Shown piece by piece: positions 7,204 to 16,853 of a DNA stretch of 64,000 bases. Source of the stretch: Vanrija pseudolonga. Its lineage: Eukaryota; Basidiomycota; Tremellomycetes; Trichosporonales; Trichosporonaceae. Location of the stretch: positions 1,550,001 to 1,614,000 of the forward strand of contig NC_085852.1 in assembly GCF_020906515.1 (NCBI RefSeq). The letters run 5' to 3'. Position numbers and translations under genes: made by a program. The notes below the pieces were generated by a model. It was given only the letters and a program-made list of their open reading frames with translations. It did not search any database and was not told where the DNA came from. The stretch's first letter is position 1. Each line of letters starts with the position of its first letter.

Positions 7204-9459
7204 TCACAGCGCACGTTCAATGTACCGCTGCCATGCCTCATTCGCCTTTTGTGCCCTGTGACGCGTCAGAAATACATTCGAGTATCGTAGACATGTTGGT
7301 ACTCACCTCCACTCGCAACCATCTTCAAACTCGCACCAGGCGCAGCGACTCGCTTCGCTGGGTGCCACTCCCCGAGGCGCCCGAGTCCCTTTCCAGTAGT
7401 CGAGCACACTGTCCAGATGGGATGCCAGGAGCCGTCGGTTGTGGCCGAACCTGGTGCGCCCGATGATGGACCCGGACGTCGATCCGCTGGACGCCTCGGT
7501 TTCCGTGGTGATCTTTGGGTTTGAGGGGGCGCGCGAAACCTCTTGGGATGCACGCAGTGGCACCTCGGCACTAGTGTGTGCTTCCGGTGACTGAGTGGCA
7601 CCGAGACTAAGTTCAACAGCCCACGCTAGCTCGTCTTCCTCTCGCTCGGCGTCGCTTTCCCCTGAAGCACGTTGATCAGGCCCGTGGGACATGCTCCTTC
7701 GCAGACCTTGGCGCGGTGGCGTTTGGGGACTAGGGTCTCCAGAGGACGCGATATCGGTAGCTGTCAAGAGGTTCGCGTGGGTCAGAGTCGATTGCAATTG
7801 CGACGCTGTCGTCGTATGCACGTTGTGAAACGCGGCTGGCGTCGACGGTTGAACCGTGCTAGGAGGTAGTGTGTCATTGGTCTGGGATAGTGTCGACGAG
7901 GGAGGGGTCACTGGGGGTAGTTCGAACTGAATGACGTTCGCTGGTTCAGAAGATGTGCCTGCGCCAGAGACTTGGAGGCTTAGAGCAATTGCCAGCTGGA
8001 GGTCGGCATCTTCTTCCTCGGCCAAGGCGGCTTCCAATTTCAGTGCAGTGTCGCCAGTTGCAACATCTCTGTCGTCTTCGCTCGCCTCCGCCTTTCTCCT
8101 GGTTCGGCGTTTTTTACGCTTCGCCCCATCTTTGGGCTTGACTGGACCGGCACGGCGGTATACCAGCTCCATGGTGTCGTCGGTGGCGCCATCGCCCTGC
8201 TTCGCGTCGGATCCGAGACCGAGGAGCTCGACGTAACGGCCCCATACGGCTACCATGTCGGCGAGATTGACAGCGTTGCCGATATCAAAACGCAGCCCGT
8301 TGGAGATAATGACCGGTCGGATTTGCTGCAGGAAGACATCGGTAAATGCCGTTTCCATATCAACACCGAGGTGAGCGAGCACGACGTCAAAGCCAGACGG
8401 ATTGTCGGTTGGCAGGGGTGACCCATGCCCTGCCGCCTGGACTTCGGGGACGAGAGGTTTTGGCCGCAGAAGCGCGTCGAACAGCTCTTTGTAGAGCATG
8501 ACTTGCAGTCTGCCCGAAAGTGTGTCTGATTCGCGCGGTAGAGTACCACTCGCACGCGTCTTGGAGTCGCTGACCATGAGTCGGTGGGTTCGTGGTCGTG
8601 GAGCGGAGATGTTTAAAAAGGCATCGAGGGACGCCTGGCGCGACGCGTCGCGAGTTGCGCGGCGCTTGGGCGGAGTGTCCTCGACTGACACGCGGGTTAT
8701 CTCATCCTGTGCTGTCAGATACGCACGCGCATGTCGCCTCACAATGATGCCCATTATCGGCACGCCGCGCACTATGCCCACGACAGGAATTTCGCGGCAC
8801 TTGCCCAGCGAGATGAGCGTTTCGAGTGAGACGACCATGTTGAGGAGCCTGGCCGTCAGCACCAGTCCACTCCTCGTACCTCACCTCAGTCCCCAAGCAT
8901 CTTCGCGCGACTCGCATGCTATCGTGACCTCGGCCGGGTGAATCTCGCGCTCAAGCCTCTTGTGGATTTTCTGCGGTCAGCCAACTGAGCACCGTATCTA
9001 GCTTACTTCTCCACGCTTGAGGATTCGCTCCTTCCCCTCCACCTTCACTTTGTCGACTTTGATTTCGGCGCCTTTGGACGTCGTGATGCGCTCTGGGCGC
9101 GCGGCAGGGGGTAGGAAAGGGAGGGTACGGAGGCGGCTGTACGGTCAGCCAAGTGATACGATCGACTATACCCACTAGTCGTATTGCACCTCACACCACA
9201 CAGTACCAACGAGATCAGATACGGAGAGGACCCCGCGCTTCCGAAACTCGTCCATAGGCGACAGGCCGACGACATCCTCAATGTCCTGCACGCCGCCGGA
9301 CAAGGACGCGTGTCGCGACTCGCCGCCCTGCTCGACCGTGCGGAGAGTCTCCTCGAGGTCCGAATCGTACGCTACCTCGGAGCCGTAGTCGTCATCGCTG
9401 TTTGTGGCTGCCACCGTGTCGCCTGGATGTGGATCCATGGCGGCAGGTGCATTGTCCAT
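7204..9459 (-). CDS. EXO5: Exonuclease V (EXO5/Dem1 family) with UIM insert
   Basis: Single-strand DNA exonuclease of the PD-(D/E)XK fold with a 4Fe-4S cluster; family members act in mitochondrial or nuclear genome maintenance. Exon 1 starts at ATG 9459 with an acidic leader and reaches GTVWCEVQYDY, whose Cys is the first cluster ligand. Short exons follow with KRLEREIHPAEVTIACESRE, LLNMVVSLETLISLGKCREI and VRGVPIMGII joined to DEITRV, the family's metal-binding core. The C-terminus has LDYWKGTRAPRGVAPSE and RCAWCEFEDGCEWR, giving the other three Cys, then a last exon ending QRYIERAL. About 200 residues are inserted before the C-terminal cluster and contain two ubiquitin-interacting motifs, DADLQLAIALSLQ and EEDELAWAVELSLG. 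Five introns of 36-55 nt are inferred. Family assignment is very secure. Confidence 0.9.
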
Positions 9460-9999
9460 GCGATGGTGCTGTTAAGAATGTCGAGATGTCGAGAAGCTCT
9501 AACTGCCAGACATGTCAAAACAAAGATCGACCTCCACCGGCTACGACCGATCCAGTCATCTGGGCCACGTGGAGAGGACGGAAGCAATAAAGCACCTGCT
9601 GTCGTGGCCAATGTGGCAAGGTGGCGGAATTATCGTGTGTCTTAAGGTGATTCGTTGAATGCACGCCCGAACAACAAACAGGCCCTCGACCTCTCGCCCA
9701 CTAGACGACGACCCTGTTGTGCTCCCTAGCATCCTTCCATTCTTTCCATGTGGCCCTATTCGTTGCCCTCGTGGGAGGATGTCTCTGGTACTGAACAGAT
9801 GCTGACCCATCACTGCTACTAACCGCAGTCAAACTGCTGCTCGATCTGTGCGCCGTCAGTTTGTTTACCAGAGTGTTGCTCACAAGGCGGCGTGGTTTCT
9901 GATAGTGGATTGGGTTGAGCGAGGTGCGACCCCTGCCCAACTTGGGGCGATCTGGCGGCTGCTCCATGTCAACAGTGACCAGGCGGGCCTTCGTTGGAC
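9460..9999. other. EXO5 upstream region
   Basis: Promoter side of EXO5. No supported gene; small frames on both strands lack recognisable features. Confidence 0.45.
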
Positions 10000-10296
10000 T
10001 TACCATGACCGAGAGTAACGCCCACTGTCCTTGTTCTGGGAAAGTAGGAAGGAAGGAATGTTGGTGATGTGGAAAAAGCAATCGTTGGTCAAGACATGAC
10101 GATCTTCCTCGATAGTCCCGCGTCCGCGGGCAAAGGGCACCCGGGCCTCTAACAGCAGGCCAACCGCCCTGCGCCCCAGGGGGGTGAGGCCGCGTACCGG
10201 GGTGGTCGTCTCAACCTGCACGCGGTCGACCACGCCCCACCGTCCCGGTCTGGCACACTCTGACGGCCTGGTCCACATGGGCAGAATGATATCCAT
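10000..10296 (-). pseudogene. Possible orphan coding fragment
   Basis: A minus-strand frame starting near 10296 reads with coding-like composition for about 65 residues (GVVDRVQVETTTPVRGLTPL, then GRRAVGLLLEARVPFARGR) before turning into low-quality sequence. It has no recognised domain. It lies directly downstream of the homing-endonuclease remnant on the same strand, so it could be a further piece of that element, a separate small gene, or chance. Confidence 0.25.
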
Positions 10297-10426
10297 AGTG
10301 TCTACACTGCCGAAACGATAGCCTAGAGCAGCTGTCTACCCCGGAAATCGAGCACTGCGCCCGAAATCGAGAACTTGGACGAGCATCGGAGGTACATCCC
10401 CCTCATCCACGGAACCCCGCCTTCCT

Positions 10427-12670
10427 TCATGCGCCGGCCACCATCTGCTCGAGGCACTTGACCTCCTCATATGCCTTGATGTAGTCATGCAGGACCTGCA
10501 TGTATGCTTGCAAGGGTAAGCAAATCGAACGAGAACCCGGAAAACACTCACGACGCGCCCTCTTTGCCTTGGGGTCGTACTCCTCCATTGCAGTCTCCGC
10601 GATCTTGAGACGCTCACGGGCGTCCTCGAGCATGATGACGAGTTGAGCTGCACAGGTATCAGACTTACTCTTGGCTGACTCCTTCTTACGTGGGGTCGAC
10701 CCATATGCCATTTGGGGGTCTGCCAAAGCTGAAAGATGTTGATGGAGAACTCGTCCGAGTCGTCGGCATCGATGAGCCCGGCCAGCAGATCCTGTCGCAC
10801 CGCCCGGGAGTTGAACATGTACTCCGGTGGGACGCGCTTGGAGTCACGGGCCGGGCCCTTGCCATACTTCCTGTAGTCGTAAATGAGCTTCAAGTTCTTC
10901 ATGGCCGTCAACAGGCGATTGCAGCCCTTGCCGGTTGGCATGTGGGCATCGGGCTCGAATGATCGTGATGTTGCAGCGGGGGGATGGAGCATGTTGTCCG
11001 CGATGTCGTCCGCTTCATGCTGTGAGACCTTCCGCACTATGCGGCGGACATGACGGAATCGCTTCTTGGACTGCAGTACGTTGTCGTCGATGTCCACGTC
11101 CTCGAAGATGCCATCGGTGCTGGGCGGTGGAACAGGCGGAGCGCCGTCAATTGACGGGGTGGTGGATGAGGTGGATGCGGAGGAAGCGGGGCCCAGCCGT
11201 CGCTTCTTGGCTGGGCGCGGTGAGTCCGAGTTGGACGGACCTGTTTCCGCCGGGGGATTGAAATTTGCCGCCTTACTCCCACCCTTGTACCCGTCATCCC
11301 CCCGGCGCACGCGAGTATAGCCCTCATCCATCAACTCCTTCATCTCCCGCCTCCGGAGTCGCGGTTCCAGCTCTCCACGTTCCTCTGCGTCCTTGGTTTC
11401 CGGCAACGCCTTTGACGAGCGGGTACCCGACGTCAAGCCGTACTGCACACCGCTGTAGTACTTCAAGTGCAGGTCGAACATGCCGCAAATCTCGTGGAGG
11501 TAGTCGATGATTTCCTTCTGGTGATTGTTGGTGATACCGGTGTTGGCGCGATTTCCGTCGCCGAGCCAGAGACCGATGAACTTGGCGGGCACGGGCACTG
11601 GAGCCTCAGGATAGTCCAGTGCGGCCGGCTTGTGCACCCGGAACCGCTGCATGTCCTCCACAGCCATGCCCCGGAGCTGGTCAACCGTGAGCTGGGCCTT
11701 GACAACGTCGTCGTCCGAAACGGAGAGGTTGCTGAGATTGACCACCGGTGTGAACCAAGGGGTTTCGACAGCCGTCGTGAACGACGCCGCCATGCCGAAC
11801 CGGTGGTAGGGGTTGGGGAAGTAGTAGTACCGGATGGTCGACTTCCCCCTCACTGCGACCTCCAGCGCGACGCACCACGACATCCGCTGCGGATGGTAGC
11901 GCACCGAGATGCCGTGGAGGTGGTCGTCCACTTTCAGGCAGAGCCTCGCATGGAACCCCTACCGCTTGCCTCGGAGTCGTTGCGAGAGTTTGGCAAGCGT
12001 GTTGCCACCGGTCGACGTGAGTTGTCGAGCAAAGACGACGGCCGCAGCATAGACCTCCTGGCGCTCAGCGAACCCCTGGACCGTCTCCTTGTCGAAGACA
12101 TTCGAGACCTGGTCCTCTGGCCAGCAGAACGCCCACTTCTTCAAGCCATCGGCGTGTCGGCTATGCCCGGCATTCACGATGAAGCATTGAACCGTCTCCG
12201 ACACATAGGCTGTGCCGGTGAGTGCCCGAATGAACTTGGCCGCCGCGGCCTCTCCACGGATGTGGTGACGGGCGAGAGAGTCGCTGATGACCTGACGCAT
12301 TGCTGCACCAAAGTCGGGGTAGTGGAAGCCGGTGGTGCTGCCGCCCTCCGTGAAGCGCGGCTCCGATGGCCCAGGCAACCCGGGGATCAGGCCTTCCGAG
12401 ATGCGAGCCTTGATGGCGTCGAAGTCCGTGTCCTCATGCGCGGCCACGCTGTGGCGCTACTCCGACACAGAAATGACGTCGAGGATGTGGTCACCAGTGA
12501 GGATGGGATCGGCGCGGTGCGGCTCGAGGGCGGTCGACTTGCCCTTCCCCGTCAATTCCAGGCGCATGCAGCACAGCCGGCGGTGCCCGTTGGCTCTCGG
12601 CCAGGTCCAACAAGTCCGAACTGGTATCCATTTTGAGATGTAGCAGATGGTTGATCGTACGGTCACTGTT
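10427..12670 (-). pseudogene. Decayed intein-like LAGLIDADG homing endonuclease
   Basis: One minus-strand reading frame, broken by in-frame TAG codons at 12457-12459 and 11959-11961, carries intein-style blocks in order. A block-B-like LTGDHILDV is at 12475-12501. A linker ending PEAPVPVPAKFIGLWLGDGN supplies the first endonuclease helix (11551-11580). Then NRLLTAMKNLKL and RVPPEYMFNSRAVRQ lead to the second motif, LLAGLIDADD (10759-10788). Both catalytic acidic positions remain. Between the two motifs lies about 250 residues of mostly disordered sequence with a nuclear-localisation-like PAKKRRLG. The endonuclease half after motif 2 and the C-terminal splicing blocks are absent; a different frame then encodes a coiled coil (LVIMLEDARERLKIAETAME) with a 45-nt intron at 10507-10551, ending at 10427. 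No extein sequence flanks it. DOD endonuclease ancestry is secure; its status as broken gene versus domesticated protein is inferred. Confidence 0.72.
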
Positions 12671-13131
12671 GATCAGGATGAGCGACCGTATTCCCGCCCA
12701 CTGATAGGTCGCTGATCGCTCAGTGGGTTGAGGATCGGAGGAAGAAGAGGGAGACGACGATAAGACGACATCCATCAACCGCCTCAGAAGTAATGGTTGG
12801 TTGCTTCAATGACGTCACACCACGTGACTGATTTCGACCAATGTGGCAGTTTGAGCATCATATCAACCAGCAGGCCATCCGAGAATCTCTACTCCAGAAA
12901 CTCCAGATTCACATGTGACAGTTGCGTGCTCCTCAAGCTGCACTCTCTGGCACAGACGGCACCACCGAAACGCCACAATACTACGTGCATAAAGCTCATC
13001 ATCAAACAGCCCCAGAACGAGGCACTTTGAACGACACGCACAGGGTGCGCATCTATGTGGGGTGGATAGCTGTTTATCCGGAGCCTGCGGGTGGTGTCAG
13101 CATGTCTTGCACGAGTTATCGGGCTCTGAGT
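12671..13131. other. Intergenic, no gene seen
   Basis: Lies between the homing-endonuclease remnant and the 3' end of the ADP/ATP carrier gene. A minus-strand frame from 12778 joins the remnant at its 5' side through an apparent frame change and may be its original N-terminal part. Confidence 0.4.
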
Positions 13132-14751
13132 CTATTCACCTCCCGAGTAGACCTTGCCGAAGACGAGCTCCTGGAGCTTCTGTTTGACGTTAGCAACTCT
13201 TCCAAGGACATAAATCGTATACTGACGTCGTACATGGAGAGCACACCAGCACCGGCGACACCACCTGCGCATTGTTAGCCCATAGCCAGGCGCGCAAGGA
13301 TGTTAACTTACGGAGGATGTTAGCGCCAGCGCCCTTGAACAGAGACTTGACGCCCTCAGCCTTGATGATCTGGGCACCGGCGTCGAACATCGACTGGCCG
13401 GGTGTCAGTTACTTGTCTCTTTACAGAAGGTTTGACATGGGTGACGTACCTTGTAGTGGACCTTGGCACCCGAGGTCATCATCATACGACGACGGATGGT
13501 GTCGAGGGGGTACGAAGCAAGACCGGCCGAGGTGGTGACGGTCCAGCCGAGGAGGAACGAAGCAAGGAAGTTACCCTCAAGAGGGCCAACGAGGACAACG
13601 GGCTTGATCGAGTCGTAGAGACCGAAGTAGAGACCACGGTAGACAATGATACCAACAACCGACGGGACGAAGCCACGGTAGAGACCGGCGATACCGTCAG
13701 TGGCAAGGGTCTTGCGGTAGACGTCGATCAGACCGTTGAACTGGCGCTGGCCACCCTTGCCGGCCGACTTGTTGTCGTTGGCAAGACGGGTACGGGCGTA
13801 GTCGAGCGAGTAGACGAAGAGGAGCTGGGGTTGTTAGTTGTGCCTCAATGCTGGTGTGTAGGGGCAGTGCTAGTGTGTAGGGGTAGTGCTGGTCTGTAGG
13901 GGCAGTGATGGTGTGTAGAGGTATTGGTAAGGGGTGGGTAGGTGGGGAAGGGTGCATGAGGCCGAGTACACGATGGCTGAGCGGGGACAATCGTAGCATT
14001 TGTTGACAGGAGTCGCTCCACAGAGGATCCTGGACAGCAGCCATGGAAACCCATCCGCTTGTCAACAGCAAGCGCTCCAGGGGTATGCTAGACAGCAACG
14101 GTCAAAGGTGACCGTGTTGTAACAGTAACCGCTGGAGACGCATGCTGGACGATCATCGGTTTTGTAATTGTCGTTACTCGACACCATGTTGTCGTTTCCG
14201 CCCGAAACTCAACGACAACAACCGAAAGATGGCCCCAAGATGCGAGGAAGAAGAGAAAACCCGAAGACTCACCGACGAGGCACCGGCAGCACCACCCGAG
14301 GCGATGTTACCAGCGAACCACTTCCAGTAGCCGTCCTGCTTGCGGAAGCCGAAGAGGGACTTGAAGTAGTCCTTGAAGGCGAAGTTGAGCGCCTGGGTGG
14401 GGAAGTAACGGATGACGTTGGCAGTGTTGCCGCGCCAGAGCGAAACGAGACCCTCCTCAGCGTAGGTGCGCTGGAAGCAGTCGACGATGCCCTTGTAAGG
14501 CTTAGAGAGACGGCCCTGCTTGATCCTAGACGCATGTCAGTGACATGCAAACAGAGGTTGAACGGTGCAACATGGGGCCGATCATGCCACATGCGCCGAT
14601 CATGCCACACTCACATCTCGTCCTGGTTCTGGACAAGGAGCTTGACACGCTCAATGGGGGCAGCGGCGGTCTTGGCGACAGCGGCCGAGACACCACCCAT
14701 GAGGAAGTCGGTGGCGAAAGCCTTGAAGTCCTTCTGCTTAGGCTGGGACAT
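13132..14751 (-). CDS. AAC: Mitochondrial ADP/ATP carrier
   Basis: Exchanges cytosolic ADP for matrix ATP across the inner mitochondrial membrane. It starts [20 protein letters not shown] and has three mitochondrial-carrier repeats. Their signatures include [27 protein letters not shown] and the nucleotide-carrier hallmark RRRMMM within [15 protein letters not shown]. It ends GAGVLSMYD joined to [15 protein letters not shown], stop TAG at 13132-13134. Length, near 310 residues, is normal for the family. The introns are short except one of 448 nt (13825-14272) that is unusually long for this genome and contains two sets of tandem repeats. The upstream DNA has no clear TATA box but carries G-runs about 500 bp away. 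Confidence 0.93.
13851..13926. repeat. Four-copy 19-nt tandem repeat inside AAC intron
   Basis: Four head-to-tail copies of CTGGTGTGTAGGGGCAGTG, each differing by a few bases, lie close to the intron acceptor. They enlarge an intron that is otherwise untypically long. Confidence 0.85.
13999..14158. repeat. Diverged ~55-nt repeat, three copies, in AAC intron
   Basis: Three related segments begin at about 13999, 14058 and 14116, sharing the order TTGT-(T/C)(A)ACAG, then CGCT(C/G)(C/G)A, then ATGCT(A/G)GAC or its diverged form. They are clearly older than the 19-nt repeat beside them. Confidence 0.5.
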
Positions 14752-16853
14752 TTTGACTGCTGTGGATGTGTTAGAACGTTGCCTGGGTGAAAAAAAGTAA
14801 AGGGCCAATGACGTGCTCGGAACGGATAGGATAGGGGATCGTCAAGCGGTGACGACTGCAATGCAGTTGATCGCTAGCTCAACGCCCTCATAAGCCAGCA
14901 AGAGCACAGACTGTGGTCGTCGAGTGACAGCTTTGACTTTGCTAGGCTGAGAACCGCAGTTGCTTTGGTTGCAACGTGGCCCTGTCCATTCCGAGATAAC
15001 GAGCAGTGGTGGGATTTTCAGAGACCCGGCAAGCAAAAACGCTGCCGATCCATCGACGGAAATGGGCTTTGCGCCCGGGCAACATGATTGCGCCGGGGCT
15101 GAGATGCCCAGGCATGATGACGAGGCGAGGTCAGTTGCTCACCTTCTTTTCAACGGGGTGGAAAGAAGAGAAAGAGTGGTGGGTTGGAGAAGAGAAAGAA
15201 GGGAGAAAAACGAGGTGGTCTTATGAAAAGGGTGGGGCGCGGACAGCGCGAAGGCAAGGGGGGGGAAGGGGGGACGGAGGGCTAAGGGGGGGGTCAACGG
15301 GGGGACGGCGGCTGAAGGGGAGAATGTCTTTCCGGAGCGTGCAAAGCTGCGCGGTGTCAGGGTCCAGCGAGGTTTGTAGTACCGCTCCGTCCAAGCCCAG
15401 CGCGCGCAACCAGCCAGCCAACCCAGCCAACCGGCCCGCCCGCCAGCCTAGCCAGGCGAGAGTCCCTTCACCCAGGAAAATCACTCCTTCATAGTCGGGA
15501 CAAACCGGGCCACTAAACGGTGTTTCACGGAGTTAACGCTATCCAGCGCAGGTGAGCTGAGCCTGGGTGCGCGCAAAAGACGCGTGCAATGGCAGGCGAG
15601 GCGAGGCGAGGCGAGCCAGTGACGAGGGCAGAGTGACAACCACCGGTTGGCCAGTCGTCGACAACGGCAAACTTCGACCGACGCGCCGACGATCTGCCCC
15701 TCGCTCACTGGGCGGACCACCAACGACACCGCGCCCCTCGCCGCCGTGTCCACTGCCGCCGGCATATGCCGCACAACGCTTGACCAATGAATCCAAACCA
15801 CATTTGTGATCATGCATACTAGTGTTCATGCCGCGGCTGCTACTGCTGCTATGTATGTCTAATGCAGCGTTGCACTGTCATGCGCCCCACGTAGCCCCTC
15901 GGACATGCGTATCTCTGTGATAGCCTTGACCGACCGGGCGCCTCTCCGACGAAACCTGGCGACGGGTCTGACGATTTTGCGCCTTCCGTTTCGCCGAGGG
16001 GCTTGGGTGCATGGCATGGCTGATTGCTGCTGTTTGAGCGAGGAACAAACGAAATCGATCCGATCCAATGGTGACTGACTTGGCCGCCGAGCATGCCATG
16101 CAGCAGCAGCAGCGATCATAACCGGGCAGAGATGCAACCGGCTGCACACGGCACGACTGTCTGCAGGCAGATAAAGGATCTCGCACGCGGCGTCTGCCCC
16201 CAACCCTGCACACACTGACGGCGACGTCACCTTGCCTGGCAGTCACGACGACGTCCTCCGGCCCCACCACGCCGCTACACATGCTCACTCGCTCACTCAC
16301 GCCCATGCACATGGCGACGGGCGGCGTGCTTGCAACAGCAGCTCCAACCTCTTGGCAGGACACATTCCGTTCCGCCCCCCACCCACCTGCCCCACCCACT
16401 CCGCCCTCTCGCCTAGCTGCGCCACAAGGGCCGCACATCCGATGCGCAAAGTGGGGCAGCAGGCAAGGATGGCCGATGTGTGCCGTGCCGCGCCGTCGGC
16501 CAGCATGATTTGCAGCGATTCTGCGCATTCCACTCGTCGTCACAGTCCAGCCCGCTTGCACGCTCTGCTCTGCGACTCTCTTTGCAGAAAGACTCCCGAC
16601 TCTGACGCGTTCTCGGGGCCCTCCTCCAGCGACAACCACGGGGCCAGGAGCCCCAACACCATGCGAACGTTACGTGATCGCCCAGATCTAGGCCCATGTC
16701 TCGAAGCAACAGCCGAGGGAAGCACCTGCGACGCTCTCATCGTCGCGATCAGATGGAGCCACGCGCTCTTGTGGTGGTGAACAAGGATACATGTGCGATG
16801 GGTCTATCAAGGACCGCCTCGCACACAGCCAGCGTCACAGCCGGCACAGTCGC
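14752..16853. other. 2.1-kb intergenic region with G-rich tract
   Basis: Promoter side of the ADP/ATP carrier and 3' flank of NudC. No coding sequence is supported. It contains G-runs at 15258-15306, a C-rich CCAGC/CCCG tract near 15400-15450 and four tandem GGCGA units at 15595-15615. Confidence 0.5.
15258..15306. repeat. G-rich tract with several G-runs
   Basis: Plus strand shows successive runs of eight, six, three, eight and six G within 49 bases, separated by two to six bases. That is a textbook pattern for G-quadruplex potential. It lies about 500 bp upstream of the minus-strand ADP/ATP carrier start. Confidence 0.7.

Follow-up and report, generated by a model that had tools for sequence, protein, structure and literature searches.

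Gene structure and neighbourhood of the locus

The window, a stretch of 64,000 nucleotides from contig NC_085852.1 of the yeast-like fungus Vanrija pseudolonga (Trichosporonales, Tremellomycetes), belongs to a genome of 24.87 Mb in nine contigs. The feature under study was read on the minus strand, and the plus-strand frame held 22 stops. It was placed between a mitochondrial-carrier gene (Pfam Mito_carr), which we take to encode an ADP/ATP carrier, and an EXO5-like gene, and it was located downstream of the carrier gene on the same strand. The EXO5-like gene (7303-9471, minus strand) contained a 525-aa frame with a partial Exo5 match, followed by ubiquitin-interaction motifs (PF02809, E 1.9e-6).

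A single near-identical protein was found, the uncharacterized LOC62_04G005857 of V. pseudolonga (435 aa, P0001 hereafter), and a four-exon splice of the minus strand reproduced it letter for letter (Table 1). The exon ends were deduced from the protein sequence, and the resulting coding sequence comprised 1308 nt with a TGA stop, of which position 10427 was the last base. All inferred introns carried GT-AG ends. The frame 11958-10690 contained 423 codons without a stop, for which the chance was about 3e-6 by base composition, and its codon usage was ordinary compared with the long ORFs of this genome. The start of P0001 was situated inside a coding-like region that extended upstream beyond a TAG.

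Table 1. Features of the endonuclease-like locus, with coordinates in the window
Feature	Position	Strand	Remarks
Gene of P0001 (LOC62_04G005857)	exons 11883-11283, 11210-10680, 10647-10552, 10506-10427	minus	four-exon splice identical to P0001
Inferred introns of the P0001 gene	11282-11211 (72 nt), 10679-10648 (32 nt), 10551-10507 (45 nt)	minus	
LTGDHILDV	12475..12501	minus	not significant as block B
In-frame TAG heading the upstream frame	12457..12459	minus	candidate introns at most 4/8, including 12574-12457 with a frame change
Upstream open frame, 165 codons	11962..12456	minus	same frame as the endonuclease; codon model 0.045
In-frame TAG between upstream and endonuclease frames	11959..11961	minus	best candidate intron 3/8, without branch point
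Segment preceding the endonuclease	11731..11958	minus	four predicted strands; considered as an AP2- or PUR-like DNA-binding domain
Block C and first LAGLIDADG helix (FIGLWLGDGN)	11458..11628	minus	44.7 bits against the seven-intein profile; Asp codon 11559-11557 corresponds to PI-SceI D218
Loop insert between blocks C and D	10921..11424	minus	about 168 codons, about 144 residues when spliced; low-complexity; ends set by eye
Blocks D and E (SKRVPPEYM...LLAGLIDAD)	10762..10842	minus	20.8 bits; Lys codon 10839-10837 corresponds to K301, Asp codon 10764-10762 to D326
C-terminal tail, helical-looking by eye	10427..10647 (exons 10647-10552, 10506-10427)	minus	replaces the second endonuclease half

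Retained and missing parts of the endonuclease

The initial annotation had read FIGLWLGDGN, RVPPEYMFNSRAVRQ and LLAGLIDADD as intein blocks in the correct order, and these motifs were indeed found in one minus-strand frame, in that order and above chance. When the frame 11955-10768 was searched against 5.77 billion proteins, P0001 and four intein-bearing proteins were obtained at E up to 1 (five of 4928 candidates), and the E-values of the latter were 1.8e-7, 1.1e-3, 9.8e-3 and 0.1. The closest relative was P0002, a DnaB protein with an intein, which showed 50% identity over 54 residues of block C and 56% over 27 residues of blocks D-E. For the profile comparison, seven inteins out of 13 proteins were picked by their likeness to this locus. 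Among 200 shuffled six-frame sets, 85 gave a match to this seven-intein profile, all below 0 and the best at -0.3 bits. Since the seven inteins had been found via this locus, the E-value of 1.8e-7 was taken as the independent measure.

The intein family profile matched PI-SceI in the PDB at E 1.1e-37, and through this family alignment the Asp, Lys and Asp of the locus corresponded to PI-SceI positions 218, 301 and 326, which we take to be the catalytic residues. Blocks C, D and E were thus present in the right order with Asp, Lys and Asp retained, as in the Hom_end lineage; the Asp of block E was followed by another Asp, where inteins have Gly. The match-bearing part comprised only about 80-85 residues (fewer than 90 alignable), the locus was not reported by Pfam's own models PF05203, PF05204 and PF14528, and PI-SceI was absent from a direct phmmer search of P0001 against the PDB at E up to 10. 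Judged by its sequence, the match to an intein-type LAGLIDADG endonuclease is genuine. A weak match to Mediator subunit 27 (E 0.005) was also seen in P0001 residues 273-341, which cover the end of the insert and block D, and was probably due to chance.

In the six frames of 9500-13100, neither the Hint N-part nor block B nor blocks F/G gave a profile score above shuffles, which agrees with the earlier statement that the C-terminal splicing blocks are missing. The same statement had assigned LTGDHILDV to block B, and this assignment was not borne out: its core scored -4.2 bits against the block-B profile, inside the shuffled range (168 of 200 shuffles gave a match, with a median best of -3.5 and a maximum of 1.4). 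Nothing of the second endonuclease half was detected past block E in the six frames of 9500-13100. The profile starting at block E matched residues of that block and no others (1.0 bit, against a shuffle maximum of 0.6), and hhalign aligned block C only. No host protein was recognised around the element in domain libraries, the PDB or the length-limited protein search, in keeping with the initial annotation.

There was no CxxC motif in P0001. One CRSC was located at 10500-10489 in frame 0 (of 12672-10339), outside the frame used by P0001 there, and this stretch was not coding-like (-0.083). No repeat over 24 nt linked the carrier gene to the element within 9400-15000, a range that covers the EXO5-like gene partly, and the only longer repeat in it was tandem and confined to the region of the carrier gene. 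This array, at 13849-13943, had a 19-base unit, and four copies of its 38-nt register were 63-100% alike.

A DNA search revealed one copy of the element in this genome. The protein search of the genome gave one place, besides three weak matches judged to be chance, and the intein P0004 found only this locus at E up to 10 (E 3.1e-5). Among the rows from the large protein collection, none apart from P0001 bore a fungal name at lengths of about 218-693 (five rows of 4928 candidates) or about 388-1235 (three of 2313), and none did at about 1320-4200 aa (seven rows of 4702 candidates, at E up to 10, best E 0.28); these searches need shared 5-residue words and a length range, most rows were unnamed, and distant relatives may be missed. 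No relative was confirmed in viral and prokaryote contigs. Among the matches listed for the open-licence literature, none reported a free-standing endonuclease of the intein type from Tremellomycetes.

Upstream frame, loop insert and tail

The codon score of the upstream frame was reached by 6 of 145 shadow ORFs, and 37 of 62 long-ORF chunks scored at or below it. The codon model separates moderately, as the neighbouring EXO5-like frame scored 0.001, a value reached by 20 of 145 shadow ORFs. The upstream frame had no relative in three domain libraries, the PDB or the length-limited protein search, and the genome yielded no further copy of it that could be an uninterrupted host gene. The flanks of the endonuclease were partly coding-like, with no relatives found. 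A region of about 150 residues of unknown fold had been placed between block B and the endonuclease; this part is more aptly termed an N-terminal region of unknown fold.

Both in-frame TAG codons reported previously were confirmed, and the candidate introns over them were rated on an ad hoc 8-point scale (Table 1). The stretch 12573-12460, which holds LTGDHILDV, was coding-like in frame (0.045). An ATG at 12631 opened a short frame (frame 1, minus strand, 12491-12631, MDTSSDLL...) with a weak coding score ahead of the upstream frame, and the gene may originally have begun there. Were the upstream frame a separate gene, the two TAGs would not count as damage.

The insert between the catalytic motifs contained KKRR at 11208-11197, as the initial annotation had noticed, and the 72-nt intron was inferred within it. 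Its codon scores in frame 0 were 0.041 for 11208-10770 and 0.000 for 11460-11283. The widened spacing that had been pointed out was also observed: the distance from catalytic Asp to Asp was 265 codons unspliced and 241 residues in P0001, compared with 108 in PI-SceI and 100 in P0002. After block E, the frame shifted through the 32-nt intron and led into the tail. The spliced coiled coil that the initial annotation had seen in another frame corresponds to this helical-looking tail, which the public protein P0001 uses. The region 10648-10552 was coding-like in frame 1 (0.092), and 10506-10427 was not clearly so (-0.024).

Origin and state of the gene

HO and WHO of Saccharomycetaceae are the known free-standing members of the intein-type endonuclease lineage, and PMC7282813 describes them as intein-type LAGLIDADG endonucleases without exteins and without motif G, which carry a C-terminal zinc finger with 3-5 CxxC motifs. 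According to the same paper, WHO genes are mostly found downstream of a conserved gene such as FBA1, many of them are pseudogenes, and duplicated FBA1 3' fragments occur at some, not all, WHO loci; HO/WHO are proposed to have arisen through mis-homing into a gene (PMC7282813). The Vanrija gene resembles HO/WHO, as described there, in being free-standing with no recognised extein, in the lack of motif G and in its position downstream of a conserved gene. In a comparison by description only, it differs from HO/WHO in its basidiomycete host, in the loop insert of about 144 residues, in an endonuclease reduced to its first segment plus the second LAGLIDADG helix, with no detectable Hint, and in the lack of CxxC in P0001 and of a duplicated carrier-gene fragment over 24 nt. 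Because of these last two absences it was regarded as HO/WHO-like and was not filed as a member; by analogy, it may work, or may once have worked, like an HO/WHO-type free gene.

Other relatives are inteins proper. PI-SceI, the VMA1 intein (VDE), shares blocks C, D and E and, as seen through the intein family alignment, the residues D218, K301 and D326, whereas the Vanrija gene lacks the splicing blocks, the host protein and the second endonuclease half. The DnaB and other Hom_end inteins (P0002-P0008) are closest by sequence and, unlike the Vanrija gene, sit inside helicases and other proteins. Fungal Prp8 mini-inteins in the PDB matched the same intein family profile. They reside in Prp8, and 0 of the 7 rows at 1320-4200 aa (E up to 10) was named Prp8, with 6 of the 7 unnamed. 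At the Prp8 locus of this genome (near 1730737-1730895), the residues preceding the match were not contiguous in ORFs, probably owing to an intron. Fungal Prp8 inteins are treated in PMC5784728, which surveys eukaryotic inteins, and in PMC1508164; in the former, Cryptococcus neoformans and C. gattii are the sole intein-bearing species among the tremellomycetous yeasts analysed, and extra-large Prp8 inteins hold linker sequences of unknown function.

On balance, we favour, with some reservation, the explanation that the locus holds a free-standing gene derived from a PI-SceI/VMA1-DnaB-type intein endonuclease (Pfam Hom_end), truncated, recently decayed and joined to other coding pieces. In all likelihood the lone gene is a selfish element that broke recently, and the fungus may have put it to another use. 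Of the two origins that the initial annotation had offered, an escaped and damaged free-standing endonuclease fits best, because the significant match covered only endonuclease blocks, with no Hint or second half detected and no host protein recognised, and two TAGs interrupted a coding-like frame; the nuclear-targeted family gained no support, with one genomic copy found and no other row named fungal in the length- and word-limited searches (most were unnamed). An intein-type endonuclease gene would have left its host protein, as has been proposed for yeast HO/WHO, and would have persisted alone between the carrier and EXO5-like genes; a recent loss of function would then have come with upstream nonsense changes, loss of the start and replacement of the 3' half. 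The two TAGs in the coding-like upstream frame, with no good intron over the one at 11959-11961, support decay, but the long stop-free frame, ordinary codon usage, kept catalytic residues and GT-AG introns count against it. Given these latter features, either the decay must be young or the truncated gene still functions.

The second of these possibilities leads to domestication, which we regard as unlikely. Here the endonuclease remnant would be a DNA-binding module to which the insert, helical tail and N-terminal part were added, like WhiA. The long, stop-free and coding-like frame, its match to the public protein P0001, the KKRR motif and the coding-like tail exon are consistent with this, and WhiA (DUF199), a LAGLIDADG-derived bacterial regulator that has lost cutting (PMC7282813), provides a precedent, by description only, for an endonuclease turned regulator. 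However, no ortholog was found in the length- and word-limited protein searches, and thus there was no sign of conservation; the catalytic residues were kept although no selection for them would be expected; and the P0001 start was inside a coding-like region running upstream past a TAG.

It is less probable still that the element was a true intein of a now broken host gene, with the 165-codon N-terminal region and the tail as exteins. The coding-like character of both flanks and of the stretch holding LTGDHILDV would suit such an origin, and PMC7282813 gives mis-homing into a gene as the proposed route to HO/WHO. Against it, Hint blocks A, B, F and G were not above shuffles in any frame, and the upstream frame lacked both a relative in the three domain libraries, the PDB and the length-limited protein search and a second uninterrupted host-gene copy in the genome. 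Slightly more doubtful again is a new nuclear homodimeric protein that would bind or cut DNA, derived from an intein endonuclease and built from one LAGLIDADG half that keeps its catalytic residues, a disordered NLS-bearing loop and a dimerising helical tail.

An active HO/WHO-like homing element with a wrong gene model, in which the true splice product would be a complete nuclease that homes next to the carrier gene, is very improbable. The element stands alone, with a conserved gene upstream of it on the same strand, much like WHO beside FBA1, and the three catalytic residues were kept, but the six frames of 9500-13100 offered no second half past block E, P0001 had no CxxC while the CRSC lay in a stretch that was not coding-like, no carrier-gene fragment longer than 24 nt was duplicated, and one copy was found in the genome. 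Chance or contamination, to which the match of only about 80-85 residues and the silence of Pfam's own models might point, can hardly be credited in view of E 1.8e-7 in 5.77 billion proteins, 0 of 200 shuffles reaching 0 bits, and a position inside a 3.42 Mb contig, between ordinary genes and in the genome's codon style.

Returning to the truncated endonuclease that we favour, LAGLIDADG nucleases with two motifs depend on both halves for contacting and cutting the target site, and the missing half would presumably carry the lysine matching PI-SceI K403. Cutting of DNA by the predicted P0001 monomer is unlikely, because both this lysine and half of the saddle that binds DNA are missing. If the homodimeric protein did exist, it would represent an independent domestication in a basidiomycete, parallel to that of HO. 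Yeast HO and WHO exemplify intein-type endonucleases that live in nuclear genomes without being part of another protein. Finding one in Tremellomycetes, whether damaged or intact, would suggest that such escapes have happened more than once. The Vanrija gene would also serve as an entry point for the search for intact relatives and for tracing the steps from intein to free gene.
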